Shown: positions 8,181 through 32,133 of the stretch, one piece after another
Layout: the number at the start of each line of letters is the position of its first letter
Position numbering within the stretch: the stretch's first letter is position 1
DNA from: Eubacteriales Family XIII. Incertae Sedis bacterium
GTDB lineage: Bacteria; Bacillota; Clostridia; Peptostreptococcales; Anaerovoracaceae
Direction of reading: 5' to 3'
Assembly (NCBI GenBank): GCA_031261395.1
Contig: JAISJT010000051.1
Coordinates: 1-51,675, forward strand
Length of the DNA: 51,675 nt
Notes under the pieces: generated by a model
Databases searched by the model: none
The model's input: only the letters and a program-made list of their open reading frames with translations
What the model was told of the DNA's origin: nothing
Translations under genes and position numbers: made by a program

Positions 8181-8196
8181 GCTCCAAATCCCCGCC

Positions 8197-9648
8197 TTAA
8201 AAATTGAAATAAATGAATGGATTGTAGCTGCCGTTGACCATATAGCTGACACAGATGACAAAGAGCGCTATGAGACAAACTGTCCCGAGCGCATCCCAAG
8301 TCTTGACCAAACGCGCGCCTCCCTTATGCACCCGCGTGGTAAGCGCCGTGAGAATCGGTGTACATGCCAGTACACAGATGATCAGGATCATCCAATTGTC
8401 CTTCACGTAAAAAAGCGAGAGTTCACTCGCCGCCGGAAAATGCTGTCCGTCTACCGAAAGGCCTACCATGACCTTGAGATAGCGCAGAGCTTCCGCGAGT
8501 CCGGATGCACGAAAGATGACCCATCCGAACAGAAAACAAACGATCGTGAAGATGCGATAGGGAATGGCGAGAAGCGGCGTCTTTGCCGTTCTTTCGGGAA
8601 TGCGCACCAATTTTTCAAATGCAAGCAGCACGAAATACATGAGACCCCAGGCGATGTAGTTCCAGCCCGCCCCGTGCCACACACCGGTGAGCATCCAGGT
8701 GACAAACAGGTTGAAGATAAGCCGCCCCATCGGCACGCGCGAACCGCCGAGCGGGATATAGACATAGTCGCGAAACCAACTCGAAAGCGAGATATGCCAC
8801 CTGCGCCAAAATTCGGTGATCGTCCGCGAAATATACGGGTAGTTGAAATTCTCAAGAAAGCGAAAGCCGAACATGCGCCCCAGACCGATCGCCATATCAG
8901 AGTAACCCGAAAAATCAAAATAAATCTGAAAGGCATAACAGACGGCGCCGAGCCATACCGTCAGCAGCGTCGGAGGATCCGCCGCCGGGGCGCCAAAGGC
9001 CCGGTCCGCCACGACGGCGACCGTATTGGCCAGGATGAGTTTTTTTGAAAGTCCGATGATGAAGCGCTTGACGCCATATGAGAAGGACTCAAGATCAAAG
9101 CCGCCGGACCGCCCTGTCAGTTGTTCTGCGATCGAATTGTAGCGAACGATGGGACCCGCCATCAACTGCGGGAAGAAGCTGATAAACAATGCCGTGTTCA
9201 AAGGATTTTTCTGGACAAGGGCCGTGCCACGATAGACATCGATCACATAGCTCATAGCCTGGAAAGTGAAAAACGAGATGCCGATCGGCAGGACAAAACC
9301 AGGCAGTTCGAAGTCAAATCCAAGGAAACGGTCAATATTGATAATTGCGAAATCAAGGTATTTGTACACGAAAAAAATGCCGACATTCCAAACGACCATA
9401 CCGGCAAGACAGATCTTCGCAGAGACTTTCCCCCGAAAACGATCGACGCAAAGGCCGAATCCCCAGTTGACAAAGATCGACAAGATCATCACATAAACAA
9501 ATTTGGGCTCGCCATATCCATAGAAGGCCAGACTCATGATGAGCAGAAAAATATTTTTGACGGCTATCAGGGATTTTGGAATCAGGTAGTACCCTGCAAG
9601 ACAAAGCGGGAAAAATACGAACAGGAAAACCGCTGATGAAAAAACCAT
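8197..9648 (-). CDS. MBOAT family O-acyltransferase (AlgI/DltB/PatA-like)
   Basis: MVFSSAVFLFVFFPLCLAGYYLIP..., FDFSGYSDMAIGLGRMFGFRFLENFNYPYISRTITEFWRRWHISLSSWFRDYVYIPLGGSR, GVWHGAGWNYIAWG. Confidence 0.95.
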   Translation of the reverse strand: MVFSSAVFLFVFFPLCLAGYYLIPKSLIAVKNIFLLIMSLAFYGYGEPKFVYVMILSIFVNWGFGLCVDRFRGKVSAKICLAGMVVWNVGIFFVYKYLDFAIINIDRFLGFDFELPGFVLPIGISFFTFQAMSYVIDVYRGTALVQKNPLNTALFISFFPQLMAGPIVRYNSIAEQLTGRSGGFDLESFSYGVKRFIIGLSKKLILANTVAVVADRAFGAPAADPPTLLTVWLGAVCYAFQIYFDFSGYSDMAIGLGRMFGFRFLENFNYPYISRTITEFWRRWHISLSSWFRDYVYIPLGGSRVPMGRLIFNLFVTWMLTGVWHGAGWNYIAWGLMYFVLLAFEKLVRIPERTAKTPLLAIPYRIFTIVCFLFGWVIFRASGLAEALRYLKVMVGLSVDGQHFPAASELSLFYVKDNWMILIICVLACTPILTALTTRVHKGGARLVKTWDALGTVCLIALFVICVSYMVNGSYNPFIYFNF

Positions 9649-10517
9649 TAACTCTTGGCCAGAATCTCCCGAATCAGACCGTCATCTCCCCAAATCTCCC
9701 GGCTGTCGTAGGGACGATCGGGGAAAGCGCCGTATTCGAGTTTTACGTCAAAGCCGTTTTCTTTGATAAAGGTTTCGACCTGCTGCGCGAGGCTGACCGG
9801 TTTGCCTGAGCAGACATTGATCACGCCCGTAACAGGGGCAGCGGCGGGTTCGCCGCACTGCGTAGCAGCTGCTACGATTTGCCGTGCAAGTTCGTCTATA
9901 TGAATGAAATCGTATTTGCTTTGACCCGTCGTGAACGGGAAGGTTTTCTTGCCCTCAGCAGCCGCCTGCGAAATCTTTGCAAAAATCGAACTGCCGCGCA
10001 TATCGTCCCCGTAGATATAATACCCTCTAAGCCAGTAAAGCCGAAAGTTTTGCCGCGCCGCCTCGATGAGCAGAGCCTGACGCAGTGCATTCTTGGCAAC
10101 GCCGTAGAGCGAAAGAGGATTGCATGGCGCTTCCGCTGTTACAGCCCCCTCGAAAAAACCAACCTCGTGCATCGAACCCATAACAGCCATATCGGCAAGT
10201 CCGCCGGCCGCCATGTCGGTAAGGAAGCGGAAATGAGCCGACAGTTTCTGCATATGCACCGCCGAATTGTGAACGAAACCCGCCTCCCATGCCAAGTGAA
10301 TGAGGACATCCGGACGGCCGAGCCTGTCGAAAATATCCGGTGCGCCGGAAAAGATATCTTCCTGCGTCTGTGTGATACGAGGCTCTCCGATATAATACGA
10401 ATCTAATGCCATGTCGCTTGCGATCACGCGATGTCCGCGCCCCAGCAATTCTGCCACGACATGCCTCCCGATATATCCCGACGATCCGGTGACTAATATA
10501 TTCATTTCTCTTTTCAT
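9648..10517 (-). CDS. NAD-dependent epimerase/dehydratase (SDR extended)
   Basis: MNILVTGSSGYIGRHVVAELLGRGHRV Rossmann motif; SLYGVAKNALR (YxxxK). Confidence 0.92.
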   Translation of the reverse strand: MKREMNILVTGSSGYIGRHVVAELLGRGHRVIASDMALDSYYIGEPRITQTQEDIFSGAPDIFDRLGRPDVLIHLAWEAGFVHNSAVHMQKLSAHFRFLTDMAAGGLADMAVMGSMHEVGFFEGAVTAEAPCNPLSLYGVAKNALRQALLIEAARQNFRLYWLRGYYIYGDDMRGSSIFAKISQAAAEGKKTFPFTTGQSKYDFIHIDELARQIVAAATQCGEPAAAPVTGVINVCSGKPVSLAQQVETFIKENGFDVKLEYGAFPDRPYDSREIWGDDGLIREILAKS

Positions 10518-10525
10518 ACTACGGA

Positions 10526-10531
10526 ATTATA
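10526..10531 (-). promoter_or_regulatory. -10 element TATAAT of the epimerase gene, 8 nt before ATG
   Basis: Minus-strand TATAAT-TCCGTAGT-ATG; no SD. Confidence 0.55.
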
Positions 10532-10551
10532 CCATATCGACCGCAGGACAA

Positions 10552-10580
10552 TTGTCTATATTCGCGCGATATGCTATTAT
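10552..10580 (+). promoter_or_regulatory. Leaderless-type promoter TTGTCT-17-TATTAT of MBOAT gene 2
   Basis: TTGTCT 10552-10557, TATTAT 10575-10580, ATG 10588 (7-nt gap). Confidence 0.6.
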
Positions 10581-10587
10581 CCTGTCC

Positions 10588-12033
10588 ATGGTATTCAGCT
10601 CCATTATATTTTTATTCATATTCCTTCCGATCGTCTTGCTGGCTTACTATATCCTGCCCGGGAGAAAAGCCAAAAATATTGTCCTGCTTCTATCAAGCCT
10701 CTTTTTCTATTTCTGGGGCGAGGACAAACTCATTGTGATCCTGCTCTGTTCGATCCTGATCAATTACGGAAGCGGGTTTGCAATCGAGAAGACACGCAGC
10801 GGCGCCTTGGGCGGCAAACCGGCCTTGGCGATTGGCATCATTCTCAATCTGGCGCTGCTCGGTTATTTCAAATACTTTGATTTTGCTGCCGGGTTGCTGA
10901 ACGCCACCATTCATACGGATATCACCCTGAGGAATATCGTCTTGCCCATCGGCATTTCCTTTTTCACCTTTCAGGGCATCACGTATATCGTCGATCTCTA
11001 CCGGGGAAAAGTCGCTCCTCAGAAAAACCTGCTCAAATTCGGTCTCTATATTGCGCTCTTCCCTCCGCTGATTGCGGGCCCCATCGTGCGGTATGCGGAT
11101 GTATCGGAAATGATAGATGACCGCCATGAATCCGCCGCCATGTTCGCAGAAGGCATTTCGCGTTTTGTCTGCGGCCTTGCAAAAAAAGTCCTCATCGCAA
11201 ACAGTGTCGCCCTCATCTGCGATCCGATCTTTTTGGCTCCCGTGGATACGCACAGCGCCGCCACCTTGTGGATAGGAGCGTTCGCTTACACACTGCAAAT
11301 CTATTTTGATTTTTCGGGTTACTCCGATATGGCCATCGGTCTCGGGCTCTTGTTCGGATTCAGGTTTCGCGAAAATTTTGAACACCCCTATACCTCGCTT
11401 TCCATCAGGGAGTTTTGGCGCAGGTGGCATATCTCACTCTCATCATTTTTTCGCGACTATCTCTATATCCCGCTTGGCGGAAGCCGCACGGGCAATGTCT
11501 ATATCAATCTGATTATTGTCTTCTTCGCCACCGGACTATGGCACGGCGCAGGGCTGACCTTCATCGTCTGGGGACTCTGGCACGGCCTTTTCATTGTTAT
11601 TGAAAATATCCTTCGCAGAAGATCCGCTGCCACCGCCTTGCTCAGCAAGATCCGGAATCCGTTCACCCTGCTGCTCGCGCGGATCTATACACTGCTCGTC
11701 GTCGTTTTGGGCTGGGTCATTTTTCGCAGTGAATCTCTTGCCTATGCAGCAAACTACCTCAGGGGAATGCTGCTTTTGGAATCCGGTACGGATATGAAGG
11801 TCAGCGTCTTTTATTATCTTGATCACTACAACATCCTTGTGCTCATCCTTGGCGCCGCATTTTCATTTCCGCTGGCCAGCGCACTCAGAAAGTTCTTCCG
11901 GAACCGGCTCTTGGAAGACAGGCCAAACTTTTATGCGGCGCTTAGGGTTCTCTGCCTTGCTGCCCTGCTCTTTTGGTCGGCGGTGAAAGTCATCGACCAG
12001 GGCTACAACCCCTTTATCTATTTCAGGTTTTGA
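10588..12033 (+). CDS. MBOAT family O-acyltransferase (second copy)
   Basis: MVFSSIIFLFIFLPIVLLAYYILPG..., FDFSGYSDMAIGLGLLFGFRFRENFEHPYTSLSIREFWRRWHISLSSFFRDYLYIPLGGSR; ATG at 10588. Confidence 0.95.
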   Translation: MVFSSIIFLFIFLPIVLLAYYILPGRKAKNIVLLLSSLFFYFWGEDKLIVILLCSILINYGSGFAIEKTRSGALGGKPALAIGIILNLALLGYFKYFDFAAGLLNATIHTDITLRNIVLPIGISFFTFQGITYIVDLYRGKVAPQKNLLKFGLYIALFPPLIAGPIVRYADVSEMIDDRHESAAMFAEGISRFVCGLAKKVLIANSVALICDPIFLAPVDTHSAATLWIGAFAYTLQIYFDFSGYSDMAIGLGLLFGFRFRENFEHPYTSLSIREFWRRWHISLSSFFRDYLYIPLGGSRTGNVYINLIIVFFATGLWHGAGLTFIVWGLWHGLFIVIENILRRRSAATALLSKIRNPFTLLLARIYTLLVVVLGWVIFRSESLAYAANYLRGMLLLESGTDMKVSVFYYLDHYNILVLILGAAFSFPLASALRKFFRNRLLEDRPNFYAALRVLCLAALLFWSAVKVIDQGYNPFIYFRF

Positions 12034-12034
12034 T

Positions 12035-13210
12035 ATGAAAACAGAAAATCGCATTTTGATCATTCTCTTCCTTGCCGTCATCACCGTTCCCGCCCTGATG
12101 ATGTTTCAGAGCGCCGGCCGCTATCTTCCCGGGGACAACCGCATGGCCGCAGCTATTCCGAAATTCATCAAGGATGACGGCAGCCTCGTGAACAGAACAG
12201 ATATTGAAGACTTCGCCAACGACAACATAGGATTCAGAACGGCGGCGCCAAATCTGGATACGAGGGTCATGTATGAATTGTTTCATCTCATGCTCGACAC
12301 GGCACAGCTTCAGGGGAAAGAAAACAACCTTTTTGCCGGAGATGACCGGTATTACCCAAGCAGGCGCGCGCCTTATCAACCGCTTTCCGAAGAGGAACTG
12401 GAGGAAAACGGACACAACATTGAAGCCGCTGCAGACTATTTCAAGGCAAAAGACATCCCATTTTTATTTATCACGATTCCCGACAAAGAAGAGGTCTACC
12501 CGGAACTTTACCCCGATACTTTTCTGAAAAGACCGGATCAAACCAGATTGTCGCAACTGACCGACTGGCTAACGGAAAATACCGAAGTAGACGCCTATGA
12601 CCTGACCGGGGCGCTGCGCGAAAAGGCCTCAGCATCCGATGATATGCTATGGTATGAAACAGGCGACTCCGCTCACTGGAACTATCTGGGTGCATATTAC
12701 GGTTACAGAGAAATCATGGGCCGTCTGCAAAAATACGATCCGGCCCGAAAGGCGCTGACCTTAGATGATTTCGAGATCGCGGTGACGACGGAACCGTATA
12801 CAAACTGGGACGGCTCGTTTCGTTATAGGGATTTGGACAACACGATGTATACCTTTGATTACAAGGCCGGCTTCAAGTCCGCCCTTGTTGACTATGCGAA
12901 CGATCCATGGGCGCCGCCGGATCAGCTTGAGCTGGCCGGGTTTGAGAAAAACGGCCATTTCTATCACTATCACAATGACACACAGGAAGACCAGCTCGTT
13001 TTCTTCGGCGATTCCTATATCTATCAATTTCTGCTACCGTATTTTGCCGAGACTTACGGCGATGTTTATCTGTTTCACCTCCCGACCGACTACCGCATCA
13101 TGAGGCCGGTACTGGACCTGATCGGCGCGGACTTCGTGATACTCGAAAAAGTCGAACGATCCTTTAACGGTGATGATTTTCTGCTGATGGCGGAGGAATT
13201 TGCTCCATAG
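12035..13210 (+). CDS. DHHW/AlgX-like SGNH-fold protein (second copy, partner of MBOAT)
   Basis: N-terminal TM, ETGDSAHWNYLGAYYGYREIM, FFGDSYIYQFLLPYFAETYGDV. Confidence 0.8.
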   Translation: MKTENRILIILFLAVITVPALMMFQSAGRYLPGDNRMAAAIPKFIKDDGSLVNRTDIEDFANDNIGFRTAAPNLDTRVMYELFHLMLDTAQLQGKENNLFAGDDRYYPSRRAPYQPLSEEELEENGHNIEAAADYFKAKDIPFLFITIPDKEEVYPELYPDTFLKRPDQTRLSQLTDWLTENTEVDAYDLTGALREKASASDDMLWYETGDSAHWNYLGAYYGYREIMGRLQKYDPARKALTLDDFEIAVTTEPYTNWDGSFRYRDLDNTMYTFDYKAGFKSALVDYANDPWAPPDQLELAGFEKNGHFYHYHNDTQEDQLVFFGDSYIYQFLLPYFAETYGDVYLFHLPTDYRIMRPVLDLIGADFVILEKVERSFNGDDFLLMAEEFAP

Positions 13211-14612
13211 TCACCGGATCATCCTTTCTGAGCATTCGCATGAATGTTACGACCACCAATATCAGTATCAGACTCATGGGCACCGCCATGATGATCGTCA
13301 GGGATTTCAGTCCGTCCAGAACAACGCTATTGAATACCAAAGTCAGCGGCAGGATCACCAAAATCACGGAGCACAATACCTTTCCTTTTGTCGTATGATT
13401 GTTGATGAAACTCGACAAAACTTCTACGATCGAATCAAATGATGTGATATAAAACATCAGGATAAGTACCACCAATATGAAGATCAAAGCCAGACCTCCC
13501 GGCAATGACTGAAGCACATGATTGATGACATCATTCGGATCGGCGCCGATATCTACAGCGCCTTTCAAATAGCTTGATACTCCGTTGTTGCCGAATACAA
13601 AGAATGCCAGTCCGGTTGCTGCGGATCCCGCCAATACGCCTCCTATCAGCATCTTTCGGATCGTCATGCCTTCCGATATTTGCCCGATCCACTTGGGTAC
13701 CAGCACGCTCCACGAAATCCAGTAGGCAAAGAAAAATACAGTCCAATCCGATTTGAAGCCGTTTGATACATTGTCTATGTCAAGCCAGGTTGACATCTTC
13801 ACAAAATTGATAACATATGTTGACAATCCGGATGCTGTGTATTTGATGATACTCAAGGTGTCACCAAGTATAAATACGGCTGCAAGAAGTACAATGTACA
13901 GCACAACACAGCCTGTAGCGATCCTTGCAATCACTGTTATGCCAAATACGGAGGCCAGCATATAAACTACTGCAATAATCACTATTACCACAATGGATAC
14001 GATCACCGAATCCGGTATGCTAAACAGCAGATTCAATGTGTGGGTCACGTAGGGTGTTGTAATGCTGAATGTCGTTGCACAGCCTACGATCAAAGTCACC
14101 AATGAGATCACATCGATCGTGTTTGATAATTTTTTATGATTGCTGATTTCGGCGGATATCTTATCGCTTTTGTTGCCCCTCACATGCATAAAGTAGGCAT
14201 AGGCTACTGCCGGCAAAAAGTATATGACCCATGGAATAGTCGTCCAGTGAAGAATGCTGTACGTGGTCATATTTGTAATATTATCTGTCCCCAGCGCTGT
14301 CGTTTGATCCGCATAGTATTTGAACTCATGGAATCCGAAAAACACCAGGTCGCCTGCCAGACCTGTTGTAAATACCATGGAGATCCATGTAAAGAATTTA
14401 AATCTCGGCTTCCCTTCTCCCAATTTGATCTTGCCGTGACGAGAAAAGGCGACAAATACCAAAACCACTACGCCTATAAATGACAAGATAATAAAATAAT
14501 TCCCAAATACACCTGTGACGGCCGTGAACATGCCTGCCAGCAAATCCGGGAAAGTGAATATCAGAATACAAAATACGATCACGATCCCCAATGCGATCAG
14601 CAATAAACTCAC
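13164..14612 (-). CDS. BCCT family transporter (choline/betaine/carnitine type)
   Basis: Polytopic; FKFFTWISMVFTTGLAGDLVFFGFHE, SWSVLVPKWIGQISEGMTIRKMLIGGVLAGSAATGLAFFVFG, FYITSFDSIVEVLSSF. Confidence 0.85.
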   Translation of the reverse strand: MSLLLIALGIVIVFCILIFTFPDLLAGMFTAVTGVFGNYFIILSFIGVVVLVFVAFSRHGKIKLGEGKPRFKFFTWISMVFTTGLAGDLVFFGFHEFKYYADQTTALGTDNITNMTTYSILHWTTIPWVIYFLPAVAYAYFMHVRGNKSDKISAEISNHKKLSNTIDVISLVTLIVGCATTFSITTPYVTHTLNLLFSIPDSVIVSIVVIVIIAVVYMLASVFGITVIARIATGCVVLYIVLLAAVFILGDTLSIIKYTASGLSTYVINFVKMSTWLDIDNVSNGFKSDWTVFFFAYWISWSVLVPKWIGQISEGMTIRKMLIGGVLAGSAATGLAFFVFGNNGVSSYLKGAVDIGADPNDVINHVLQSLPGGLALIFILVVLILMFYITSFDSIVEVLSSFINNHTTKGKVLCSVILVILPLTLVFNSVVLDGLKSLTIIMAVPMSLILILVVVTFMRMLRKDDPVTMEQIPPPSAENHHR

Positions 14613-16408
14613 TTTGCACCTCCTGCCTCATCCAGAAATCCTTCATCATGAAGGATTTTGTAGTAGTCCTTCATATACCGATACATGACCAACGGATACT
14701 CACCGAACTCTTCACCGAAACTCTGCTTGTACTCGCACCAGAGCGCCCACAAAAAACCCGCCAGCGCCATGTACATATACAGGCGGGCCGTTTCCTGCCT
14801 TTCCGGTATCCTTCCCAGATAATAAGAGAGCGCCAAATCGGCCCGTTCCCTCGGAAAATACGAGTAGATGGAAAACATCGCGATATCGATGATGGGATCC
14901 GCCGCCCCGCTGTATTCCCAGTCGATGACACGCATGCCGCCGTCCGGCAGACAGAGCAGGGTCGCGAAGATATAGTCGATGTGACAGAGGATCTCGGGAA
15001 TCCCAAGCCGTCTCCTGAATGCCAGCAATTCATTGGCCTTCGCACGCACCTCGGCATAATCGGTAAAGCGGATCGCCTCGGCGTCCTGCGCCAAACGCTC
15101 ATAAAAACCGATCAGCTCTTCGATGTCAAAACGATGCTCCGCCTTGATCCCGGCGCCGTGGATCCGGCCCAGCAATTCCATCGCCCGCTTCAGCTCCGCA
15201 TCGTTCTCCGCATCCAATACTCCTGCGCCTTCATAAAATTTGCTGATTTTGACGCCCGTCTCCCCGTCGAAAAATACAAGCTCGTCGGCAATGTCAAGCG
15301 GCGCAATCAGCTCATAGCTCCGCTTTTCATTCGCGCGGCTCAGCAGCTGCTCCGTGCCCTTTCCCGGCAGCCGGAACACATAGCTCAAGCCGCCGACAGA
15401 GAACACAAAACTCTGATTGGTCATGCCCTCTTTGACCGGATGAATGCCCGTGATCCCGCTCTGCGCGACGCCAAAGGTCTCTGCGATCTGACGCATGACG
15501 GCATTGTCGGTATCGCGTGAATAGCTGTCATCATACCGGCGCAGCTCTTCAAGACTCTCAAACTCCCGGACATTGTCTGCGGATTGTTTGTTGATATAGA
15601 TGGGAAGTTCCTTCAAGTGTTCGGCAAGGACATGCTCCCAATAATAATCATCTGTCCCCGGCGTCTCATAACTGTCCATGATGAATGCCGCAAAACGTTC
15701 GGAAAACGAAGCGGCGAAATACGCGGGGCCGTTCAGCCCCCAGGTATCCTCGCCCAAGGTGTCGATCTGCGTGATGAGCCCGCGTGCGCCCGTCGTCACG
15801 CCCCATTCCTTGGTCGGTCCGTCAAAATACGTACAGCAGAGATAGCTGTCCGGTTCATAGGTGTGAAAAATATTTTTCTCGGTATGATGATCCGCCATGA
15901 GCAGGTAGGTGTTTTTCAGCTGCTCCGACGCATAGTAGACGCTGACAAAATTGTTCTTCACAGCATATTCGGGATTGTAAATCAGCTTGACGCCATACTT
16001 GTCGATCAGATAATCGAATTTTTCCTTCAGATAGCCGACGACGATCGTGATGTCATTTATGCCGACTTCATGCAGTTGTTCTATTTGCCGTTCGATCATC
16101 GGCTGCCCGTTGACCAACAGCAGACCCTTAGGCGTGTCAAAGGTAAACGGCACAAAGCGCGACCCAAAGCCGGCTGCCAAGATGATGGCGTTATCAACGC
16201 GATATGAATCCAACCATATTCGCCCGTCCTCAGTCAGCTTTGCATCGCCGCCAAGCAGACCTTGCCTTGTCGCGTCCGCCACCAAAGCATTGACCTTTCC
16301 GAGTGAAATGCCAAGGCGGCCGGCCAATTCACGCTGAGAAAGCGTACGATCGTTTGCCTCTGCAAGGGTACGTAACAAAAAAACGAATTCTTTCACAGTC
16401 TCTCCCAT
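14609..16408 (-). CDS. Tri-domain protein: winged HTH + phosphocholine cytidylyltransferase (LicC-like) + choline kinase (LicA-like)
   Basis: wHTH LSQRELAGRLGISLGKVNALVADATRQGLL; NTP-transferase AIILAAGFGSRFVPFTFDTPKGLLLVNGQPMIERQIEQL; kinase EILCHIDYIFATLLCLPDGGMRVIDWEYSGAADPIIDIAMF. Confidence 0.88.
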   Translation of the reverse strand: MGETVKEFVFLLRTLAEANDRTLSQRELAGRLGISLGKVNALVADATRQGLLGGDAKLTEDGRIWLDSYRVDNAIILAAGFGSRFVPFTFDTPKGLLLVNGQPMIERQIEQLHEVGINDITIVVGYLKEKFDYLIDKYGVKLIYNPEYAVKNNFVSVYYASEQLKNTYLLMADHHTEKNIFHTYEPDSYLCCTYFDGPTKEWGVTTGARGLITQIDTLGEDTWGLNGPAYFAASFSERFAAFIMDSYETPGTDDYYWEHVLAEHLKELPIYINKQSADNVREFESLEELRRYDDSYSRDTDNAVMRQIAETFGVAQSGITGIHPVKEGMTNQSFVFSVGGLSYVFRLPGKGTEQLLSRANEKRSYELIAPLDIADELVFFDGETGVKISKFYEGAGVLDAENDAELKRAMELLGRIHGAGIKAEHRFDIEELIGFYERLAQDAEAIRFTDYAEVRAKANELLAFRRRLGIPEILCHIDYIFATLLCLPDGGMRVIDWEYSGAADPIIDIAMFSIYSYFPRERADLALSYYLGRIPERQETARLYMYMALAGFLWALWCEYKQSFGEEFGEYPLVMYRYMKDYYKILHDEGFLDEAGGAK

Positions 16409-16469: not shown

Positions 16470-16499
16470 TTGCCAAACCGACGGCAAGTGAAGTATAAT
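16470..16499 (+). promoter_or_regulatory. Leaderless-type promoter TTGCCA-18-TATAAT of the YidC-TagF fusion gene
   Basis: TTGCCA 16470-16475, TATAAT 16494-16499, ATG 16507 (7-nt gap). Confidence 0.65.
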
Positions 16500-16506
16500 T
16501 TTTGCC

Positions 16507-18582
16507 ATGAGTTTGATAAACGATTTGATTGGGACTCCCCTCGGCTATTTGATGTACTGGTGCTATATAGGAGTAGGCAGTTATGGCGCTGCCATCCTTC
16601 TATTTACGCTGCTGACAAAGATCATTCTCTTCCCGCTGTCGGTGATCGCGCAAAAAAATTCGATCAAAATGGTGCGTATGGCGCCGGAATTAGACGATAT
16701 CAAACGATACAATTCCGGCAACGGCGAACTGATCGCGCAGGAGATCAGCGCCCTCTACAAAAAAGAAAAGTACAGTACCATCGCCGGCATCCTGCCGCTG
16801 CTCGTGCAAATTCCGATCATCCTCGGGCTGATCAATGTGATCTACAATCCCCTGCAGCACCTGATGCGCTTGAATCCGGCCGTAATATCTGAATTGACGG
16901 CGAAGGCCGCAGAGCTCCTCGGCAAAGCCGGGCAGGATCTCGGCTACAGCGGACAGATCCTTGTACTCGAGGAGATGCGCAAGACGCCGGATGCTTTTGC
17001 CGGATTGGCGGATGCCGCCGCCGCGCTTCGCGACGCAGCCGCTCTCCATATGGACTTTCTCGGCATCAATCTTTCCGTAACGCCTTCGGCCGGCAATGTG
17101 ACCATGATCATCCCTATCCTGTCCGGAGTGAGCGCCCTTGCGCTTTGTATCGTCCAAAACAAATACAACGTCCTTCAGGAAAACGCCGGCTTCGTCAGCA
17201 AATGGGGCATGACTATTTTTCTCGTCGCATTCTCTGCATATTTTGCCTGCGTGCTGCCGGGCGGGCTTGGCCTGTACTGGACGGCAGGCAACCTGATTTC
17301 TATCCCGGTACTCGGCGTTTGCAATCTCATCTACAACCCCAAAAAATACATCGACTATGCGGCGATGGCCGAGCGGCACAAAGAAACGCCGGAAGAAAAG
17401 ACGGCGGCTCGAATCATGAAAAAAAAGCTTGCCGCCCGATCCAAAGAGGATATGCGCAGATTTTTCGCAAAAGACAATCAGCGAGAGCTTGTGTTCTATT
17501 CGGAAGCGAATGGGTTTTATAAATATTTCAAAGGATATATCGAGCATATCCTCGCCGGCAGCGACCTGACGATCCATTATGTGACGAGTGACCCCGATGA
17601 TCGCATTTTTGAAACGGACGAGCCGCGCATCCGGGCGTATTACGCAAATGAAAAAGATCTCGTCGCCCTATTTATGAAAATGGACGCGGACATCTTCATT
17701 ATGACGACGCCCGATCTTGACAAATACCAGCTCAAGCGTTCGTTGGTCAGCAAGCAAGTCGAGTATATCTATACCGATCATGGTATGACAAGTTTTCATC
17801 TCATGCTGAGAGAGGGAGCGCTTGACCATTTCGATACAATTTTCCTCTGCGGGCCAAATCATATTGACGAAGTCCGGCAGACCGAATATGTCTATCGGCT
17901 GCCGCAAAAGACCTTGGTCAAAACGGGATTTGCCCTGCTTGACGAATTGCTCATGCGCGTAGTAGCCTTGGGGGAGCCTGCGCATGTCCGCAAAAAGATC
18001 CTGATCGCACCGTCCTGGCAAAAAGACAATTTGCTGGATTTCTGCCTTGACGAATTGGTAAGCGGACTGTCGGGGAAAGACTACGATATCGTGATCCGCC
18101 CTCATCCCGAGTTTGTCAAACGTTTTCCGAACAAAGTGGAGAAGATCCGCGAGACATACCGGGACAGATTGGGCAAGGACATCACCCTTGAAACCGACTT
18201 TTCTTCCAGCGAGTCCATATATACGGCGGATGTCATAGTTACCGACTGGTCGTCCGTCGCACAGGAATATTCCTACACCACGAAAAAGCCTTCACTTTTT
18301 GTCAACACGCCGATGAAAATCGTCAATCCCAACTACGAATACATCAAGACCGTACCGCTCGATATCGCGCTGCGCGATGAGATCGGCGTATCCGTCGATG
18401 TAGAGGATCTGGAGAAGATCGGAGAGATTTGCGAAACGTTAATCGCGGGCAAAGGCGATTGGAAGGATCGCATATCCGGGATCGTCGAACATTATATTTA
18501 CAATATAGGAGACGGCGCAAAAAACGGTGCGGACTATATCATCGGCCGCATTGATTACAAAAGAAAGAATAGGGCTTCATGA
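16507..18582 (+). CDS. Fusion: N-terminal YidC/Oxa1-like membrane domain + C-terminal CDP-glycerol glycerophosphotransferase (TagB/TagF-like) domain
   Basis: N-term: GSYGAAILLFTLLTKIILFPLSVIAQKNSIKMVRMAPELDDIKRY...YSTIAGILPLLVQIPIILGLINVIYNPLQHL...GGLGLYWTAGNLISI. C-term: YIYTDHGMTSFHLML...ILIAPSWQKDNLL...DIVIRPHPEFVKRFP...ADVIVTDWSSVAQEYSYTTKKPSLFVNTP. One continuous 691-aa ORF. Confidence 0.9.
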   Translation: MSLINDLIGTPLGYLMYWCYIGVGSYGAAILLFTLLTKIILFPLSVIAQKNSIKMVRMAPELDDIKRYNSGNGELIAQEISALYKKEKYSTIAGILPLLVQIPIILGLINVIYNPLQHLMRLNPAVISELTAKAAELLGKAGQDLGYSGQILVLEEMRKTPDAFAGLADAAAALRDAAALHMDFLGINLSVTPSAGNVTMIIPILSGVSALALCIVQNKYNVLQENAGFVSKWGMTIFLVAFSAYFACVLPGGLGLYWTAGNLISIPVLGVCNLIYNPKKYIDYAAMAERHKETPEEKTAARIMKKKLAARSKEDMRRFFAKDNQRELVFYSEANGFYKYFKGYIEHILAGSDLTIHYVTSDPDDRIFETDEPRIRAYYANEKDLVALFMKMDADIFIMTTPDLDKYQLKRSLVSKQVEYIYTDHGMTSFHLMLREGALDHFDTIFLCGPNHIDEVRQTEYVYRLPQKTLVKTGFALLDELLMRVVALGEPAHVRKKILIAPSWQKDNLLDFCLDELVSGLSGKDYDIVIRPHPEFVKRFPNKVEKIRETYRDRLGKDITLETDFSSSESIYTADVIVTDWSSVAQEYSYTTKKPSLFVNTPMKIVNPNYEYIKTVPLDIALRDEIGVSVDVEDLEKIGEICETLIAGKGDWKDRISGIVEHYIYNIGDGAKNGADYIIGRIDYKRKNRAS

Positions 18583-20618
18583 ACCGCCGCAGGATCGTAC
18601 TCGCATACTGGGTCATCGCGCTCGCATTTTTCACGCCAAGTGCGGTTTTTGCATACATAGATCCGGCGACGACGACCTACATCATCCAAATCATCACGGC
18701 GCTTGTCGTGACCGCCGGGGTATCTCTCAGCGTCTTCCTCTACCGCTTCCGCATGATTTCAGCCAAACTGAAGTACGGACTGTACGGGCTGTTTTCCGGG
18801 CGCGGGATGGCAGCGAGCCAATCAAAACGGAAAACGCAGACCGAATATATATTGCCGCCCTATGCCATCGCCGGATCCCCGGAGCCGCTGTCAGAGGAAG
18901 ATATGAAATCCATAGGCGAACCGGCAGACATGGAATTCGCTCCGCAGCAAAATCGTGCAATGGCTGACCCCGGCAAGCGAAGCTATGCAGGCAGACTGAA
19001 AGCCGCCCTCCCGGTCATCCTCGGCGTGTGCCTTAGTTTCATCCTGTTTGGCTGTATCGATTTGGCCGCCCAAAACGCTATGGATATGCCTTTCCGGATC
19101 ATTGAGGCCGTTCCCGTCATTGCCGTTTTTTTCGCGGTTGTTTTCGTTTTGCTTCTCTTTGTCGTTCCGCTTTTTCGTGGTTCCCTGTTTGAGATCATCC
19201 TGTCTCTCGCCGTCTCCCTGCTGATTGCAGGCTACATCCAGGGGAACTATCTGAATATGGGACTTGGAGAATTGACCGGCGATCAAATCCTGTGGGATAC
19301 GTTTCAAACAAAGATGGTCATCAGCGCAATCGTCTGGATAGCCTTGTTCGCCGCGATTTTCCTTCTGCATCGCTTTGCAAAACCAACATGGCGGGGATTG
19401 ACGGTTTTAGCTCCGTTCCTGCTGATTATTGTCCAAGCGGTAGCGCTTGTTTCCGTACTCGGCGAGAGCAGTGACAACAAAAACGGACCCGCAGGAACGC
19501 TCTGGGGGGCAACGGATGAAACGCTGTCCGTCTCCGGAATCGACGAACTGTCCGCAACCAACAATGCCATCATCTTCGTTCTCGACAGACTCGATGAAGA
19601 GTATGTAGAGGCAATCACCGACTACGATCCTTCGTTCTTTGACCGGTTGGACGGATTCACAAAGTTTGAAGATAATATATCCTACTACGTGAGCACCTTC
19701 CCCTCTGTCACAAGTATGCTGACAGGCCACCGGCATTTCTTCGAAAGACCCAGACCGGAATATTTCGAAGATGCATGGGCGCATGCTGCGATGATGCATG
19801 AGATGAAAAACCGGGGCGTAGACATCAGACTATATATGGCGCGCGGTTATACCTATGACCGGATCGAGCAGCTTGAAGGACTCGCGAGCAATATTCTTGT
19901 ACCCGAATATGACGTCAGCGAGCGGATCGTGCTCGTGAAACTTCTGAAGCTCTCGGGGTTCCGCTATGCGCCGATGCCGCTGAAGCGCATATTCTGGCTA
20001 TCCCCGACCGAATTTGCGGATGCCATCTCCCTTACCGCAAAGTCTTCGCCGTATATCACCAATGATATGTCCTTCTATGACATGCTCACGACGCAGCGCC
20101 TGAAAAAACTTGACACACCTGCCACGTTTACTTATTACCATCTAACGGGTGCGCACGACCCCATCACGATAGACGAAAACATTCAGCTGAACGATCACTC
20201 CACACCCTCGCGCCAAGCGGCAGGGGCCTTCAAAATCGTCTACGAGTATCTCGATCAGATGAAGGCGCTTGGGCTGTATGATGGCGCGACGATCATCATC
20301 ACCGGAGATCACGGCATGCTTCACGGCGACGATGTCTATAGACCCGCATTGACAGGTTTGTTTGTCAAGCCGGCGGGCGCCCACGGAACTCCGCTCGCGT
20401 ACAACGAGGCCCCCGTTTGCCCGGACGAACTTCTTGCCACCATTATGCAGGGGCTCTTCGGCGAGGACGAAGATTTTGGGGCGACTTATTTTGATATCAA
20501 GGAAGACGACAGCGTAACACGGGAATATATTTCCGACCTCAAATATTATGAAATCAAGGGAGACGGCAGGGATTTTTCAAATTGGACCTACCTTGAAACC
20601 CTTGCGAATAACGAGTAA
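18579..20618 (+). CDS. Membrane-anchored alkaline-phosphatase-superfamily protein (LTA synthase / sulfatase-like)
   Basis: N-terminal YIDPATTTYIIQIITALVVTAG, multiple TM, NAIIFVLDRLDEEYV...STFPSVTSMLTGHRHFF...YYHLTGAHDPI...IIITGDHGM. Confidence 0.8.
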   Translation: MNRRRIVLAYWVIALAFFTPSAVFAYIDPATTTYIIQIITALVVTAGVSLSVFLYRFRMISAKLKYGLYGLFSGRGMAASQSKRKTQTEYILPPYAIAGSPEPLSEEDMKSIGEPADMEFAPQQNRAMADPGKRSYAGRLKAALPVILGVCLSFILFGCIDLAAQNAMDMPFRIIEAVPVIAVFFAVVFVLLLFVVPLFRGSLFEIILSLAVSLLIAGYIQGNYLNMGLGELTGDQILWDTFQTKMVISAIVWIALFAAIFLLHRFAKPTWRGLTVLAPFLLIIVQAVALVSVLGESSDNKNGPAGTLWGATDETLSVSGIDELSATNNAIIFVLDRLDEEYVEAITDYDPSFFDRLDGFTKFEDNISYYVSTFPSVTSMLTGHRHFFERPRPEYFEDAWAHAAMMHEMKNRGVDIRLYMARGYTYDRIEQLEGLASNILVPEYDVSERIVLVKLLKLSGFRYAPMPLKRIFWLSPTEFADAISLTAKSSPYITNDMSFYDMLTTQRLKKLDTPATFTYYHLTGAHDPITIDENIQLNDHSTPSRQAAGAFKIVYEYLDQMKALGLYDGATIIITGDHGMLHGDDVYRPALTGLFVKPAGAHGTPLAYNEAPVCPDELLATIMQGLFGEDEDFGATYFDIKEDDSVTREYISDLKYYEIKGDGRDFSNWTYLETLANNE

Positions 20619-20621
20619 ACC

Positions 20622-21422
20622 ATGGCGAACAATCACACTTTTGTCATTTGCGCCTACAAAGAAAGCAAATTTCTCGACGACACTACGTCGAGATTGATAG
20701 GGCAGACCACGCCCAGCCGCGTCATTATCAGCACTTCAACGCCGAATGAAACAATCAGTCGGGTTGCGCAAAAATACGGTCTTGAAGTACGCATCAACCC
20801 GCTCGGCGGCACCTCTGCACGGGATTGGAACTTTGCCTATGCGCAGGCGGAAACCGACTATGTCACGCTCGCGCATCAGGACGATGTGTACGAACCATCC
20901 TTCGCGGAAAAAACCCTCTCCGCCCTCGAGAGCTGCAAAGATCCCGTCCTCGCCTATACCGACTACTATGAGATCCGGTATGCGGAAGCGGACGGAGAAG
21001 GCGTTCGGACGGATAGTAACAGAATACTGAGATACAAAAGGCTCATGCTTCGAACCATCGCACGCGCACCCGGAAACCGCTGGCTCAGGAATCGAGTATT
21101 GTCTTTGGGATACCCGATGAACTGTCCGGGGACCACCTATGTCAAACGCCGTTTTGATTCGGTTGATTTCATCCCGAACTGGCACAATAGTCACGACTGG
21201 GAAGCGGCCATCCGGCTTGCAGGCGAATGCGGCGATTTCCTGTATATTCCGGATTTGCTGCTCGGACACCGAATCTACGCAGCATCTCAGACGACGAACA
21301 CTATCGGGAGCGGGATAAGGCGCGCAGAGGATTTTGCCTGCTTCCGCCGCTATTGGCCGGAGCCCATCGCAAAAGCCATTCTGAAACAATATGTTAAAGC
21401 CTATGATAGTAACAAGCTTTAA
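20622..21422 (+). CDS. Glycosyltransferase family 2
   Basis: FVICAYKESKFLDDTTSRLIGQTTPSRVIISTSTPNE...AHQDDVYEPSF. Confidence 0.85.
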   Translation: MANNHTFVICAYKESKFLDDTTSRLIGQTTPSRVIISTSTPNETISRVAQKYGLEVRINPLGGTSARDWNFAYAQAETDYVTLAHQDDVYEPSFAEKTLSALESCKDPVLAYTDYYEIRYAEADGEGVRTDSNRILRYKRLMLRTIARAPGNRWLRNRVLSLGYPMNCPGTTYVKRRFDSVDFIPNWHNSHDWEAAIRLAGECGDFLYIPDLLLGHRIYAASQTTNTIGSGIRRAEDFACFRRYWPEPIAKAILKQYVKAYDSNKL

Positions 21423-21452: not shown

Positions 21453-21806
21453 ATGCTCGAATCGCTAAGGAATAACAAAAAAGGAATCTTGCTGATGGCG
21501 CTTTCCGCCTTTTTGGCATCCTTTGGACAGATGTTTTGGAAGATGTACCACACAGAGGGTCTGTGGGCGCTGGCAATCGGCTTCATACTCTATGCCTGCG
21601 GCGCCCTGCTCATGATCGTCGCGTACAAGTACGGCAAACTCTCAGTGCTGCAGCCGATGATCTGCCTTTCATACGTTTTCGCGATTTTCATCTCTGTCTT
21701 CATCCTGAAAGAGACCATGACGCCGCTTCGCTTCGCGGGCATCCTTGTCGTCATCTTTGGCGTCGTGATGATCGGCGGCGGTGATGAGAAGGAGGAAAGC
21801 CAATGA
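21453..21806 (+). CDS. Small 4-TM EamA/SMR-type transporter subunit 1 (ArnE/ArnF-like)
   Basis: 117 aa, 4 predicted TM; LMALSAFLASFGQMFWKMYH...LQPMICLSYVFAIFISVFILKETMTPLRFAGILVVIFGVVMIG. Confidence 0.8.
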   Translation: MLESLRNNKKGILLMALSAFLASFGQMFWKMYHTEGLWALAIGFILYACGALLMIVAYKYGKLSVLQPMICLSYVFAIFISVFILKETMTPLRFAGILVVIFGVVMIGGGDEKEESQ

Positions 21807-22150
21807 ACACCATCCTGCTTTATGCGATGCTGATCGCCGGCTGTGCCCTTGGCGCCTTCGCCTCCTATTTTTTCAAAGGCGCTTCAGGCGCTCTGAACGG
21901 GCTGAATGTGACCATATTACTCCGGCAAAAAACCTTTTGGCTTGGAGGTCTCCTCTACCTCGTTGCGGCGGTCAACAATATCTTCCTGCTAAGGTATTTT
22001 GATTATTCGATCCTGCTTCCTATGAGTTCGATCACCTACATCTGGACGATGGTGATCGCAAGCCGCTTGCTCGGCGAGCAAATCACAAAACGCAAGATCT
22101 TCGGAGTCTGCGCTATCATTGCCGGCGCCGTGCTGATTTCACAGGGGTAG
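21803..22150 (+). CDS. Small 4-TM EamA/SMR-type transporter subunit 2
   Basis: 115 aa, 4 TM; overlaps previous gene by 4 nt; ILLPMSSITYIWTMVIASRLLGEQITKRKIFGVCAIIAGAVLISQG. Confidence 0.8.
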   Translation: MNTILLYAMLIAGCALGAFASYFFKGASGALNGLNVTILLRQKTFWLGGLLYLVAAVNNIFLLRYFDYSILLPMSSITYIWTMVIASRLLGEQITKRKIFGVCAIIAGAVLISQG

Positions 22151-22208: not shown

Positions 22209-22237
22209 GTGAAACTTCACCTTGTTTCGTGTATAAT
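22209..22237 (+). promoter_or_regulatory. Leaderless-type promoter GTGAAA-17-TATAAT of the LCP gene
   Basis: TATAAT 22232-22237, ATG 22245 (7-nt gap), no SD. Confidence 0.55.
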
Positions 22238-22244
22238 ACGTCTT

Positions 22245-23765
22245 ATGTATGCTGAAAGCGCCGTGGCTCGAACCCACGATACAAAACAAGTTGATACCTT
22301 TATGCATCTAATTGGGGTCCTCGTCGGATTTGCCGGCGTGGCATGTGTGGCGTTGGCCGCAGTTTATGTGCTGCGCTTGGGCGTCCTTCCCTTTCGTTAT
22401 GCACTGCTCATTTTCGGAGTCGACGCCGTCATTGCATTGTTCCCGCTCTATCTTTTGATTAAGAAAAAATTTGACATCAAAAAAGTACTGTGTATCGTTC
22501 TTTCGGCCCTGATGGCCATATTCAATCTTTTCGTTGTTTCCTACGGCGACTTGACCTACAATTTCTTAAACGACCAATATGGAGTAGGAAGTGTCGGCAA
22601 CGTAGAATACTGCGTGGTGGCGCAATCCACCTCACGGATTGAGCTTCAAAGCGCCAAGCGAACGCTCTCCGCCGGTATTCAAAGTACGGATATCTGCAAG
22701 GACGAAGCCGAAGCGGAAATGCAGAAACTTGCGCCCGCAGAGTTTTCCGAATACGATAACGTCAGCGAATTAATCAGCGCGACGGAAGGCGGCGGTGTTG
22801 AGATCGCAGTGGTTCAGACAGCATTTCTGGACGCATTCGCCGAGTACTTCCCTGATTCATACGAAAAACTATCGATTCTCACGAAGTTCAAAACGGATGC
22901 AGGAACCACATCCTCACCATTGGACGGGATTGCCATCGATATTACAAAACCGTTTGCGATTTATGTCAGCGGGGCAGACGATTACGGAGATATCGACCAG
23001 ACTGCCCGCAGCGACGTCAATATGCTTGTCCTGATAGACCCTGAAAACTACCGCATACTGCTCGCCAATACACCGCGCGACTACTATGTGCAGCTTCACG
23101 GAACGAACGGACTCCCTGACAAACTCACACATGCCGGAACATACGGCATCGATGTAAGTGAAGCGACACTTGAAGATCTTTATGATATCAACATTGATTA
23201 TCACGTCCATATCAACTACGACACGCTGATCAATCTCATTGACCGATTGGGCGGAATCTCGATTTACAACCCGAATGAATTCAATCTGTGGGGCGCTCAG
23301 TTCGACAAGGGCAATATCTATATGGACGGTGCACATGCATTGCTGTATGCACGGGCGCGCAAAGAACTTCCGAACGGCGACAACGACCGCGGCGAAAATC
23401 AACAGCGCGTCATCTCAGGCATCGTGGCCAGGATTTCCGCCGCCAACGTAGCCACTCAATACACACAAATACTCGAGAGACTCTCCGGGACTTTCCGTTC
23501 CAATATTCCGCCTTCCGTCATTGCGCAATTGTTCAAGAGACAAATTTCGCTGGGCGGGAACTGGGACATCGAAACCACTTCTGCCACGGGGACAAACGAT
23601 CAAAGGCCAACCTATTCGATGGGTGCGGACCGGCCTTTGTCCGTCATTATACCGGATCAGGATTCGGTAGACGCTGTTTCGGAACAGATGCAATCGTTTT
23701 TGAGCGGTGTCGATCCTGAGGTGGGATCGGGCTTAGGCGCTCCTGCGGATTCTGCGGTAGAGTAG
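22245..23765 (+). CDS. LytR-CpsA-Psr (LCP) family cell-wall glycopolymer ligase
   Basis: MLVLIDPENYRILLANTPRDYYVQL...HAGTYGIDVSEATLEDLYDINIDYHVHINYDTLINLIDRLGGISIYNP...HALLYARARKELPNGDNDRGENQQRVI. Confidence 0.93.
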   Translation: MYAESAVARTHDTKQVDTFMHLIGVLVGFAGVACVALAAVYVLRLGVLPFRYALLIFGVDAVIALFPLYLLIKKKFDIKKVLCIVLSALMAIFNLFVVSYGDLTYNFLNDQYGVGSVGNVEYCVVAQSTSRIELQSAKRTLSAGIQSTDICKDEAEAEMQKLAPAEFSEYDNVSELISATEGGGVEIAVVQTAFLDAFAEYFPDSYEKLSILTKFKTDAGTTSSPLDGIAIDITKPFAIYVSGADDYGDIDQTARSDVNMLVLIDPENYRILLANTPRDYYVQLHGTNGLPDKLTHAGTYGIDVSEATLEDLYDINIDYHVHINYDTLINLIDRLGGISIYNPNEFNLWGAQFDKGNIYMDGAHALLYARARKELPNGDNDRGENQQRVISGIVARISAANVATQYTQILERLSGTFRSNIPPSVIAQLFKRQISLGGNWDIETTSATGTNDQRPTYSMGADRPLSVIIPDQDSVDAVSEQMQSFLSGVDPEVGSGLGAPADSAVE

Positions 23766-24791: not shown

Positions 24792-25798
24792 CAGCGCCCT
24801 GCCCTTTCTTCGGCGCGGGCTTTCAGAGAGGCCGGCGCCAGCATCGCCAGACGCATCAGCGGCAAACTGGTCTTCACTCGCGCAAAGGCGATCCCGTCAA
24901 GCGTATGCATACGCGCCTTCCAGTCCGGAAAACGGGCGCTGAGAAAATCAAAGGAATACCTGAGATACCGTATCTGAAAATCCCTGTCGCCGCCGCGCAG
25001 GATAGCATTGGCACGCCTGTCGTAGTAACGAATGCAAAGTTCCGAGAGATAGGGCATCAGCGCATCCTGCCCCTCAAAATAGTAGAGGATCTCTTTGAGG
25101 TTTTCAAAGATGTCATACCACGCATCCGAAACCGTATTGGTGATCGAACCCGTGCTGAAAGCCGTGTAGAAGTAGAGCGGTTCGGGAACAAAGACAGCCC
25201 TGGCCGTATGGCTCAGATATTTCGCAAGAAAAACCGTGTCCTCCCCGAAAACCCGTCCGTCCGGGAAACGAATTTCTTCGCGGCAGATGATCTCGCGGCG
25301 AAACAGCTTGTCCCAGATGAAATCGGGAATGCGGGTGAGCAGCAGACCAAGATCCTGAGGACCCGTGATCTCCATCACTCTCCCGAGCCGGTCGTCAATG
25401 CCTACCGCGCACTCGCTCCCGTCCGCGCCCACGCTATAGTGTGCGCAGCAGGCGAGATCGGCCCCGCTCTCCGTCATCGCCGCGAGCAGTGTTTCATACA
25501 TCGAAGGAGCGACCCTGTCATCCGCATCCACAAAGCCGATATAGTCCCCGCCGGCAGCCGAAAGTCCGGCATTCCTGGCTGTAGCAGGTCCTGTGGAACC
25601 GTCCTGTTCAATGACCCGCACGCGCGAATCACGCCGGGCAAAATCATACAAAATACCCGCGCTCGCATCACCGGCGCCGTCCACCACGCACAAGACTTCA
25701 ATGTCTGTGTAGGTTTGCGCAAGCACGCTGTCTATGCAAACGGATAGTGTCCGCTCGGCATTGTATACGGGGATAATGATGCTGATCATAGAATTCAC
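24791..25798 (-). CDS. Glycosyltransferase family 2
   Basis: MISIIIPVYNAERTLSVCIDSVLAQTYTDIEVLCVVDGAGDASAGILYDFARRDSRVRVI. Confidence 0.93.
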   Translation of the reverse strand: MNSMISIIIPVYNAERTLSVCIDSVLAQTYTDIEVLCVVDGAGDASAGILYDFARRDSRVRVIEQDGSTGPATARNAGLSAAGGDYIGFVDADDRVAPSMYETLLAAMTESGADLACCAHYSVGADGSECAVGIDDRLGRVMEITGPQDLGLLLTRIPDFIWDKLFRREIICREEIRFPDGRVFGEDTVFLAKYLSHTARAVFVPEPLYFYTAFSTGSITNTVSDAWYDIFENLKEILYYFEGQDALMPYLSELCIRYYDRRANAILRGGDRDFQIRYLRYSFDFLSARFPDWKARMHTLDGIAFARVKTSLPLMRLAMLAPASLKARAEERAGR

Positions 25799-26874: not shown

Positions 26875-26884
26875 CGGCGCGCCC

Positions 26885-32041: not shown

Positions 32042-32060
32042 GTTTTCTCCTTCTGTTACC

Positions 32061-32133
32061 TGTCATCCCGGGCGCCGCCTCTGTCATCCCGGGCGCCGCC
32101 TCTGTCATCCCGGGCGCCGACCCGGGATCCACG
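32061..32133. repeat. REP-like palindromic repeat array, intergenic
   Basis: (CTGTCATCCCGGGCGCCGCCT)x2 then CTGTCATCCCGGGCGCCGACCCGGGATCCACG; same family as 28990-29126. Confidence 0.88.

Follow-up and report, generated by a model that had tools for sequence, protein, structure and literature searches.

A YidC–TagF fusion protein of Clostridia and its candidate role in the zwitterionic decoration of surface polymers

The locus and the fusion protein

The window, by which we mean the whole stretch of 51,675 nucleotides that was analysed, encodes a protein in which a YidC/Oxa1-like membrane domain is followed by a TagF-like transferase domain (Table 1). The reading frame of 691 codons is unbroken from the ATG at 16507 to the TGA that ends at 18582, and the ATG of the following gene overlaps this stop codon. 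The fusion gene heads a run on the plus strand that continues with genes for a sulfatase-fold enzyme, a family 2 glycosyltransferase, two ArnE/F-like transporters, and a LytR-CpsA-Psr (LCP) ligase. LytR-CpsA-Psr transferases attach surface polymers to peptidoglycan. A relative of the glycosyltransferase gene also adjoins the fusion gene at another locus (G129/L126). A licC-licA-type gene is divergent from the fusion gene, and the genes upstream include MBOAT/ALGX-type O-acetylation genes and, as judged by eye, genes resembling an ABC-2 exporter pair. The gene set fits a decorated, peptidoglycan-linked surface polymer.

Table 1. Features of the fusion locus, with positions in the window
Feature	Position	Strand	Evidence
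BCCT-family (choline/betaine-type) transporter, overlapping the licC-licA-type gene	13164..14612	-	PF02028 (7.6e-90), TIGR00842
Winged-helix, LicC/PntC-type nucleotidyltransferase, and choline-kinase-like domains (CDP-choline supply)	14609..16408	-	PF12804, PF01633, PF01636, PF13412; nucleotidyltransferase search (E 7.9e-83)
YidC-TagF fusion protein, 691 aa	16507..18582	+	Single ORF; PF02096 and PF04464; relatives in 80 other loci; AlphaFold2 model
YidC/Oxa1-like membrane domain, about aa 1-289; K38 at 16618-16620	16507..17373	+	PF02096; alignment with E. coli YidC
TagF-like GT-B transferase domain, about aa 315-691; catalytic-type H425 (17779-17781), H533 (18103-18105), D580/S582	17449..18579	+	PF04464; Foldseek
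YIDP peptide (about aa 6-62) fused to LtaS-like sulfatase-fold protein; D336, T373, H526, D577, H578	18579..20618	+	HMMs, active-site columns, profile matches
Family 2 glycosyltransferase, next downstream of the partner gene	20622..21422	+	PF00535
Two small EamA/SMR-type (ArnE/ArnF-like) transporters, 21453-21806 and 21803-22150	21453..22150	+	PF00892; ArnE/ArnF models weak, below cut-off
LytR-CpsA-Psr glycopolymer transferase	22209..23765	+	PF03816 (1.1e-32); NF051849 below cut-off

Two minor features of the upstream region were observed. Two MBOAT and AlgX/DltD-like pairs lie within 6 kb on opposite strands (8197-9648 and 7026-8261 on the minus strand, 10411-13210 on the plus strand) and are a doubled O-acylation system. 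The fusion transcript may be nearly leaderless, because a promoter-like motif found by eye, TTGCCA-N18-TATAAT at 16470-16507, ends about 8 bases before the ATG, and no ribosome-binding site is evident by eye ahead of it.

The fusion protein matches PF02096 with residues 26-266 (111.2 bits, cut-off 35, E 6.5e-32) and PF04464 with residues 441-598 (31.5 bits, cut-off 22.1, E 1.2e-7), and these are its only Pfam families at E<=1. The PF04464 match is weak and partial, covering model positions 134-291 of 367; relatives of the fusion score 45-57 bits. The N-terminal half additionally matches TIGR03592 (yidC_oxa1_cterm) with about 101 bits against a cut-off of 84.3. An earlier note, which had recognised the two family signatures and a covalent fusion of YidC to TagF from the motifs DHGMTSFH, IRPHPEF, and VTDWSSVAQEY among others, is thus borne out, and all three motifs are found in the protein. 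A profile of 45 homologues identified YidC structures (E 2.4e-22), mitochondrial OXA1L (4.8e-5), and, with its C-terminal half, TarL (PDB: 8va1, E 2.6e-4). Searched against the PDB as a single sequence, the TagF half had no match; the matches came from profile and fold searches. The AlphaFold2 model proposed in the earlier note was calculated from the 45-sequence alignment; it has a mean pLDDT of 90.7 and a pTM of 0.69, with high confidence also in the linker between the two halves. Its best match in the PDB according to Foldseek is TagF (PDB: 3l7l, E 1.4e-10), and it also resembles YidC (PDB: 6al2, E 1e-5).

The YidC half, modelled with five membrane helices, begins at the amphipathic EH1 helix. 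It shares these elements, the C1 hairpin, and a positively charged groove residue with YidC/Oxa1 proteins (PF02096, TIGR03592), and differs from them in that the transferase takes the place of the C-terminal ribosome-binding tail. In the window protein, about 80 residues are inserted on the outer side of the domain, an addition absent from many relatives. K38 of the groove aligns opposite R366 of E. coli YidC, and the position is occupied by lysine in 44 of the 45 homologues and by arginine in one. The earlier note had suggested looking for a conserved arginine of the groove. The polar membrane residues T34, Q101, Q217, N218, and N262 are invariant or nearly so.

The TagF half has the GT-B fold, two catalytic histidines, and the HP and D-x-S motifs of TagF and TarL, the CDP-glycerol/CDP-ribitol wall teichoic acid polymerases of PF04464. 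H425, H533, D580, and S582 are present in 45 of 45 homologues, and the columns of the two histidines carry histidine in canonical PF04464 members too; the role of the catalytic histidines of TagF, H444 and H584, is described in PMC5974469. However, the transferase is divergent: it is joined to a membrane domain and lacks a segment after the first catalytic histidine that is common to canonical PF04464 proteins. Capsule multi-enzyme polymerases likewise combine a TagF-like module with further glycopolymer modules, but none of those examined in PMC5974469 includes an insertase or an extracytoplasmic enzyme.

When GTDB species genomes were scanned, 80 further loci with relatives of the fusion were identified; together with the window locus, these are the 81 loci analysed below. 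Almost all relatives span both halves in one ORF with the domains in the same order, and the exceptions (L004, L063, L067, and L070) are truncated or late-starting ORFs, most of them at the end of a contig. The earlier note had named a sequencing frameshift that joins two genes as one finding that would refute the fusion. An assembly or gene-calling error that joins two genes is ruled out, because 80 loci of other species encode relatives, nearly all as one ORF. The identical junction occurs in dozens of independent assemblies, and the linker is modelled with high confidence, so we regard the probability of an artefact as negligible. Isolates with the fusion include Bittarella massiliensis, Clostridium aminobutyricum DSM 2634, Ruminococcus flavefaciens, and Eubacterium coprostanoligenes. 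The family is rare in random samples, with two full fusions, the window's own included, in 147 genomes of the class, and likewise in 399 genomes of the phylum. A separate housekeeping YidC, the presence of which the earlier note had left to be confirmed, is encoded in the window's own genome as a 256-aa frame on another contig, and in each of the nine genomes tested, the fusion and the separate YidC are the only PF02096 proteins.

Several further matches were inspected. A hit in the phylum scan (G111) turned out to be a housekeeping YidC adjoining a jag-like gene. A Lentisphaerae MAG (L062), of the Gram-negative type, encodes the fusion and elsewhere a long YidC with a 622-aa frame, which is due either to horizontal transfer or to a binning error. 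No annotation of the fusion was found in annotated plasmid and phage records. Three short faecal records labelled 'Bacteriophage sp.' (MT838376.1, MT836947.1, and MT836777.1) encode the transferase domain with 44-46% identity and are probably mislabelled bacterial contigs.

Partner modules and their lineages

Neighbour clustering and profile searches identified a membrane peptide, YIDP ('YIDPS'), near the fusion at 70 of the 81 loci and an LtaS-like sulfatase-fold enzyme at 55. The peptide has 60-120 residues and the motif A|Y[IL]DP[SA]xx[TS]YxIQx(V/I)(A)G..., followed by a membrane-spanning segment and a basic tail. The Y, D, P, Q, and G of the motif are all but invariant, and the peptide matches no family in Pfam. 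At E<1e-15, it was detected in 19 of 19 fusion genomes and in none of 22 fusion-less genomes of the same class, which were not phylogenetically matched to the fusion genomes. A gene for a type I signal peptidase (PF10502) adjoins the YIDP gene at L045, L048, L049, L026, L063, L126, and other loci, which suggests cleavage before YIDP.

In the window, the peptide and the sulfatase-fold enzyme form one protein, recognised by the small-peptide HMM (3.1e-13) and by the sulfatase HMM (1.3e-184). The five residues of the sulfatase fold listed in Table 1 are invariant in 21 sequences, and the closest profile match is LTA synthase (PDB: 2w5q, 9e-12). The window protein itself matches neither PF00884 nor any of the NCBIfam models; relatives pass PF00884, for example with scores of 27.6 and 52.4 against a cut-off of 25. 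The partner shares the membrane-anchored alkaline-phosphatase fold, the threonine nucleophile, and the metal ligands with the LtaS/EptA sulfatase-fold phosphotransferases, among which LtaS is the best PDB match, but differs from them in being fused to the YIDP peptide, to YidC, or to YidC-TagF.

Four arrangements of the modules were observed: YidC-TagF with YIDP-sulfatase, as in the window; YidC-TagF-sulfatase; three separate genes; and YIDP-TagF with YidC-sulfatase. At L013, L017, L044, L061, and L081, the sulfatase forms the C-terminus of the YidC-TagF protein, and the peptide gene is located just upstream. At L125, L135, and L136, a YIDP-TagF protein is the neighbour of a YidC-sulfatase of 912-922 residues. 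Such swapping of fusion partners among the same modules is strong sequence evidence, and the prediction that the four function together is well supported. The earlier note had proposed that synthesis by the transferase is coupled to insertion or translocation at the membrane. Such a coupling is strengthened by the LtaS-like enzyme fused to the same protein at five loci and by the YidC-sulfatase elsewhere; insertion or translocation by the YidC half is a step that we infer.

Phylogenetic analysis of the YidC domains placed the YidC-TagF proteins in one clade (100/100), which groups with the housekeeping YidC of Oscillospirales-type genomes (98/95) and is thus separate from the clostridial housekeeping proteins but nested near them. 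The domains of the YidC-sulfatase proteins form another clade, separated from the first by other housekeeping YidCs. A single clade for both kinds of fusion was rejected with an AU p of 0.03, which is modest, with long branches and with groups that were named after the tree had been seen. The TagF domains of the fused and permuted forms constitute one clade apart from canonical PF04464 (SH-aLRT 99), also with long branches. Because the TagF domains group together and the YidC domains split, the transferase appears to have a single lineage, and a YidC domain was probably acquired on two separate occasions.

Genes for activated donors

Genes for CMP-activated zwitterions are located near the fusion at 37 of the 81 loci, and the flanks examined at the other 44 contain no donor gene. 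A LicC/PntC-type nucleotidyltransferase is found at 34 loci, and the companion genes encode choline kinase (9 loci), PEP mutase (10), phosphonopyruvate decarboxylase (9), AEP transaminase (12), and a CobD-like PLP domain (16). Representatives of the PEP mutase, the decarboxylase, and the transaminase pass TIGR02320, TIGR03297, and TIGR03301. In several loci, the window included, a LicC-type nucleotidyltransferase fused to choline kinase is accompanied by a BCCT transporter. The nucleotidyltransferase is fused to the PLP domain at 16 loci (L027, L048, L059, L068, L074, and others), with CobD as the best model, below its cut-off. This fusion would make ethanolamine phosphate or aminopropanol phosphate, and the activated donor at such loci is probably CDP-ethanolamine. 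A single protein may thus convert a phospho-amino acid into a CDP-amino alcohol. The gene row at L134 consists of a PEP mutase-type gene, decarboxylase, nucleotidyltransferase, aminotransferase, TagF domain, YIDP, and sulfatase, and a similar arrangement of AEP-type genes with TagF, peptide, and sulfatase is present at L136 and L137.

Genome-wide, LicC/PntC-type genes occur in 15 of 19 fusion genomes and 2 of 22 unmatched controls (Fisher p 6e-6), or in 12 of 16 and 2 of 22 (p 8e-5) when the three genomes chosen for a local copy are left out. Four fusion genomes have no LicC/PntC-type gene at E<=1e-30. The loci have a choline transporter, choline kinase, and LicC in common with the LicD pathway (lic operon), and PEP mutase, decarboxylase, transaminase, and PntC in common with AEP tailoring, for which the activation to CMP-AEP is described in PMC6697681. 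In contrast to the LicD pathway, LicD (PF04991) is located near the fusion at only 4 of the 81 loci and had no match in the window's own genome, which is not proof of absence because this genome is only 83% complete. LicD was also not found in four other fusion genomes tested; some fusion genomes do encode it. The genomes G001, G002, G003, and G007 encode no PF04464 protein other than the fusion. Because LicD was not found or is rarely nearby and the fusion is the sole PF04464 protein in these four genomes, guilt by association makes the TagF-like domain the best candidate transferase for CMP-activated zwitterions. The donor genes could also serve other enzymes in the same surface-polymer loci.

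Two other uses of the donors were considered for the window's own organism. Phosphatidylcholine synthesis from CDP-choline is unlikely because the genome encodes a single CDP-alcohol phosphatidyltransferase (196 codons), which is presumably PgsA. Aminoethylphosphonate is not proposed, despite a PhnW-like gene at 25795, because PEP mutase gave only a weak, sub-threshold match in this genome.

A candidate machine and its alternatives

The reading we prefer, in which we place about even confidence, is that the four modules constitute an envelope machine that would decorate surface polymers with zwitterionic phospho(no)amines, with the fusion as the membrane-embedded transferase and the YidC fold as a path for lipids. 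At the cytoplasmic face, the TagF-like domain would take phosphocholine, 2-aminoethylphosphonate, or phosphoethanolamine from the CMP-activated form, which in the window's own organism would be CDP-choline supplied by the divergent licC-licA-type gene, and transfer it to a membrane lipid or lipid-linked glycan. The hydrophilic groove of the YidC fold would hold the lipid substrate, the head group of which would probably cross the membrane, and the sulfatase-fold enzyme, helped by the YIDP peptide, would finish the transfer onto the surface polymer outside. YidC-TagF and the sulfatase would thereby replace LicD, doing its job by a different route. Within this machine, we infer both the identity of the donor and the role of YidC. 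The idea of lipid passage was put forward because purified E. coli YidC and other Oxa1-family insertases scramble lipids in vitro (PMC10491306); the scrambling by E. coli YidC is unspecific in vitro and is no evidence on the YidC domain of the fusion itself. A broader proposal, which we advance tentatively, is that the YidC/Oxa1 fold was diverted on two independent occasions from inserting proteins to moving lipid-linked phospho- or phosphonoamines through the membrane, so that cytosolic CMP-dependent and extracytoplasmic LtaS-like transferases are coupled in one complex. This would be a class of machine previously undescribed.

As the main alternative for the YidC half, the domain may be a mere membrane anchor that places the transferase at the lipid interface, with a groove that passes nothing. 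TagF-family enzymes are peripheral and require membrane contact, and at L134 and L137 the TagF domain has no YidC fusion partner in the stretch seen, both of which are consistent with an anchor. We nevertheless consider it somewhat doubtful, since the groove lysine and the polar membrane residues named above are conserved, and the YidC fold was apparently recruited twice, once to an extracytoplasmic enzyme that needs no cytosolic anchor. The YidC half could also be a true insertase dedicated to the YIDP peptide or the sulfatase-fold partner. The peptide is short and single-span, with its N-terminus outward and a basic inner tail, like known YidC clients; its gene adjoins the fusion, and the C1 region and groove are kept. 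Such a function is quite improbable, however, as a housekeeping YidC is present in every genome tested, and an extra insertase would be odd in the several genomes where YIDP is fused to sulfatase or TagF.

The earlier note had favoured a poly(polyol-phosphate) made from CDP-glycerol. The fusion would then be a CDP-glycerol or CDP-ribitol polymerase or primase with a covalent YidC-like anchor or translocator, and the LtaS-like partner would extend a teichoic-acid-like chain. PF04464 membership with both catalytic histidines, TagF and TarL as the nearest folds, and a partner closest to LTA synthase agree with this, as does a TagD-like cytidylyltransferase 10 kb from the fusion, with 97.8 bits for TIGR01518, below the cut-off of 165.4. 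Nonetheless, the transferase belongs to a clade distinct from canonical PF04464 and lacks the segment after the first histidine. Genes of the CDP-glycerol type (CTP_transf, TagD-like, with Gfo/Idh) are near the fusion at only 3 loci, compared with 34 for LicC/PntC-type genes, and, unlike for TagF and TarL, the neighbours supply choline or AEP and not glycerol. Furthermore, a second TagF-like protein encoded in the window (28195-29493) is the likelier CDP-glycerol user. CDP-glycerol is therefore the less likely donor, and we regard the polyol-phosphate product as unlikely.

Although the individual domain families are known, the literature searched contains no description of their combination, of the YIDP peptide, or of the likely role. 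No paper on a YidC-TagF or YidC-sulfatase fusion was found there, subscription journals lying mostly outside its coverage. The module fusions of varied order tie a protein insertase fold to surface-polymer chemistry, and the family offers a natural test of a physiological use for lipid scrambling by YidC. Choline and aminoethylphosphonate surface groups have known effects on host recognition, and the fusion is a candidate enzyme for this decoration in gut Clostridia without LicD.

Further observations concern the downstream part of the window. The TagD-like cytidylyltransferase is fused to a Gfo/Idh oxidoreductase and located beside the PhnW-like aminotransferase gene (25795-28159, minus strand), and the pair recurs at L066 and L079. 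The second TagF-like gene contains a GC-rich repeat (TGTCATCCCGGGCGCCG...CCCGGGATCCACG) at 28990-29112, which is in frame and adds about 40 residues; the repeat occurs again at 32059-32133. A large surface-protein gene at 35952-41027 includes two tandem copies of 291 nucleotides, 85% identical, at 36601-37182.
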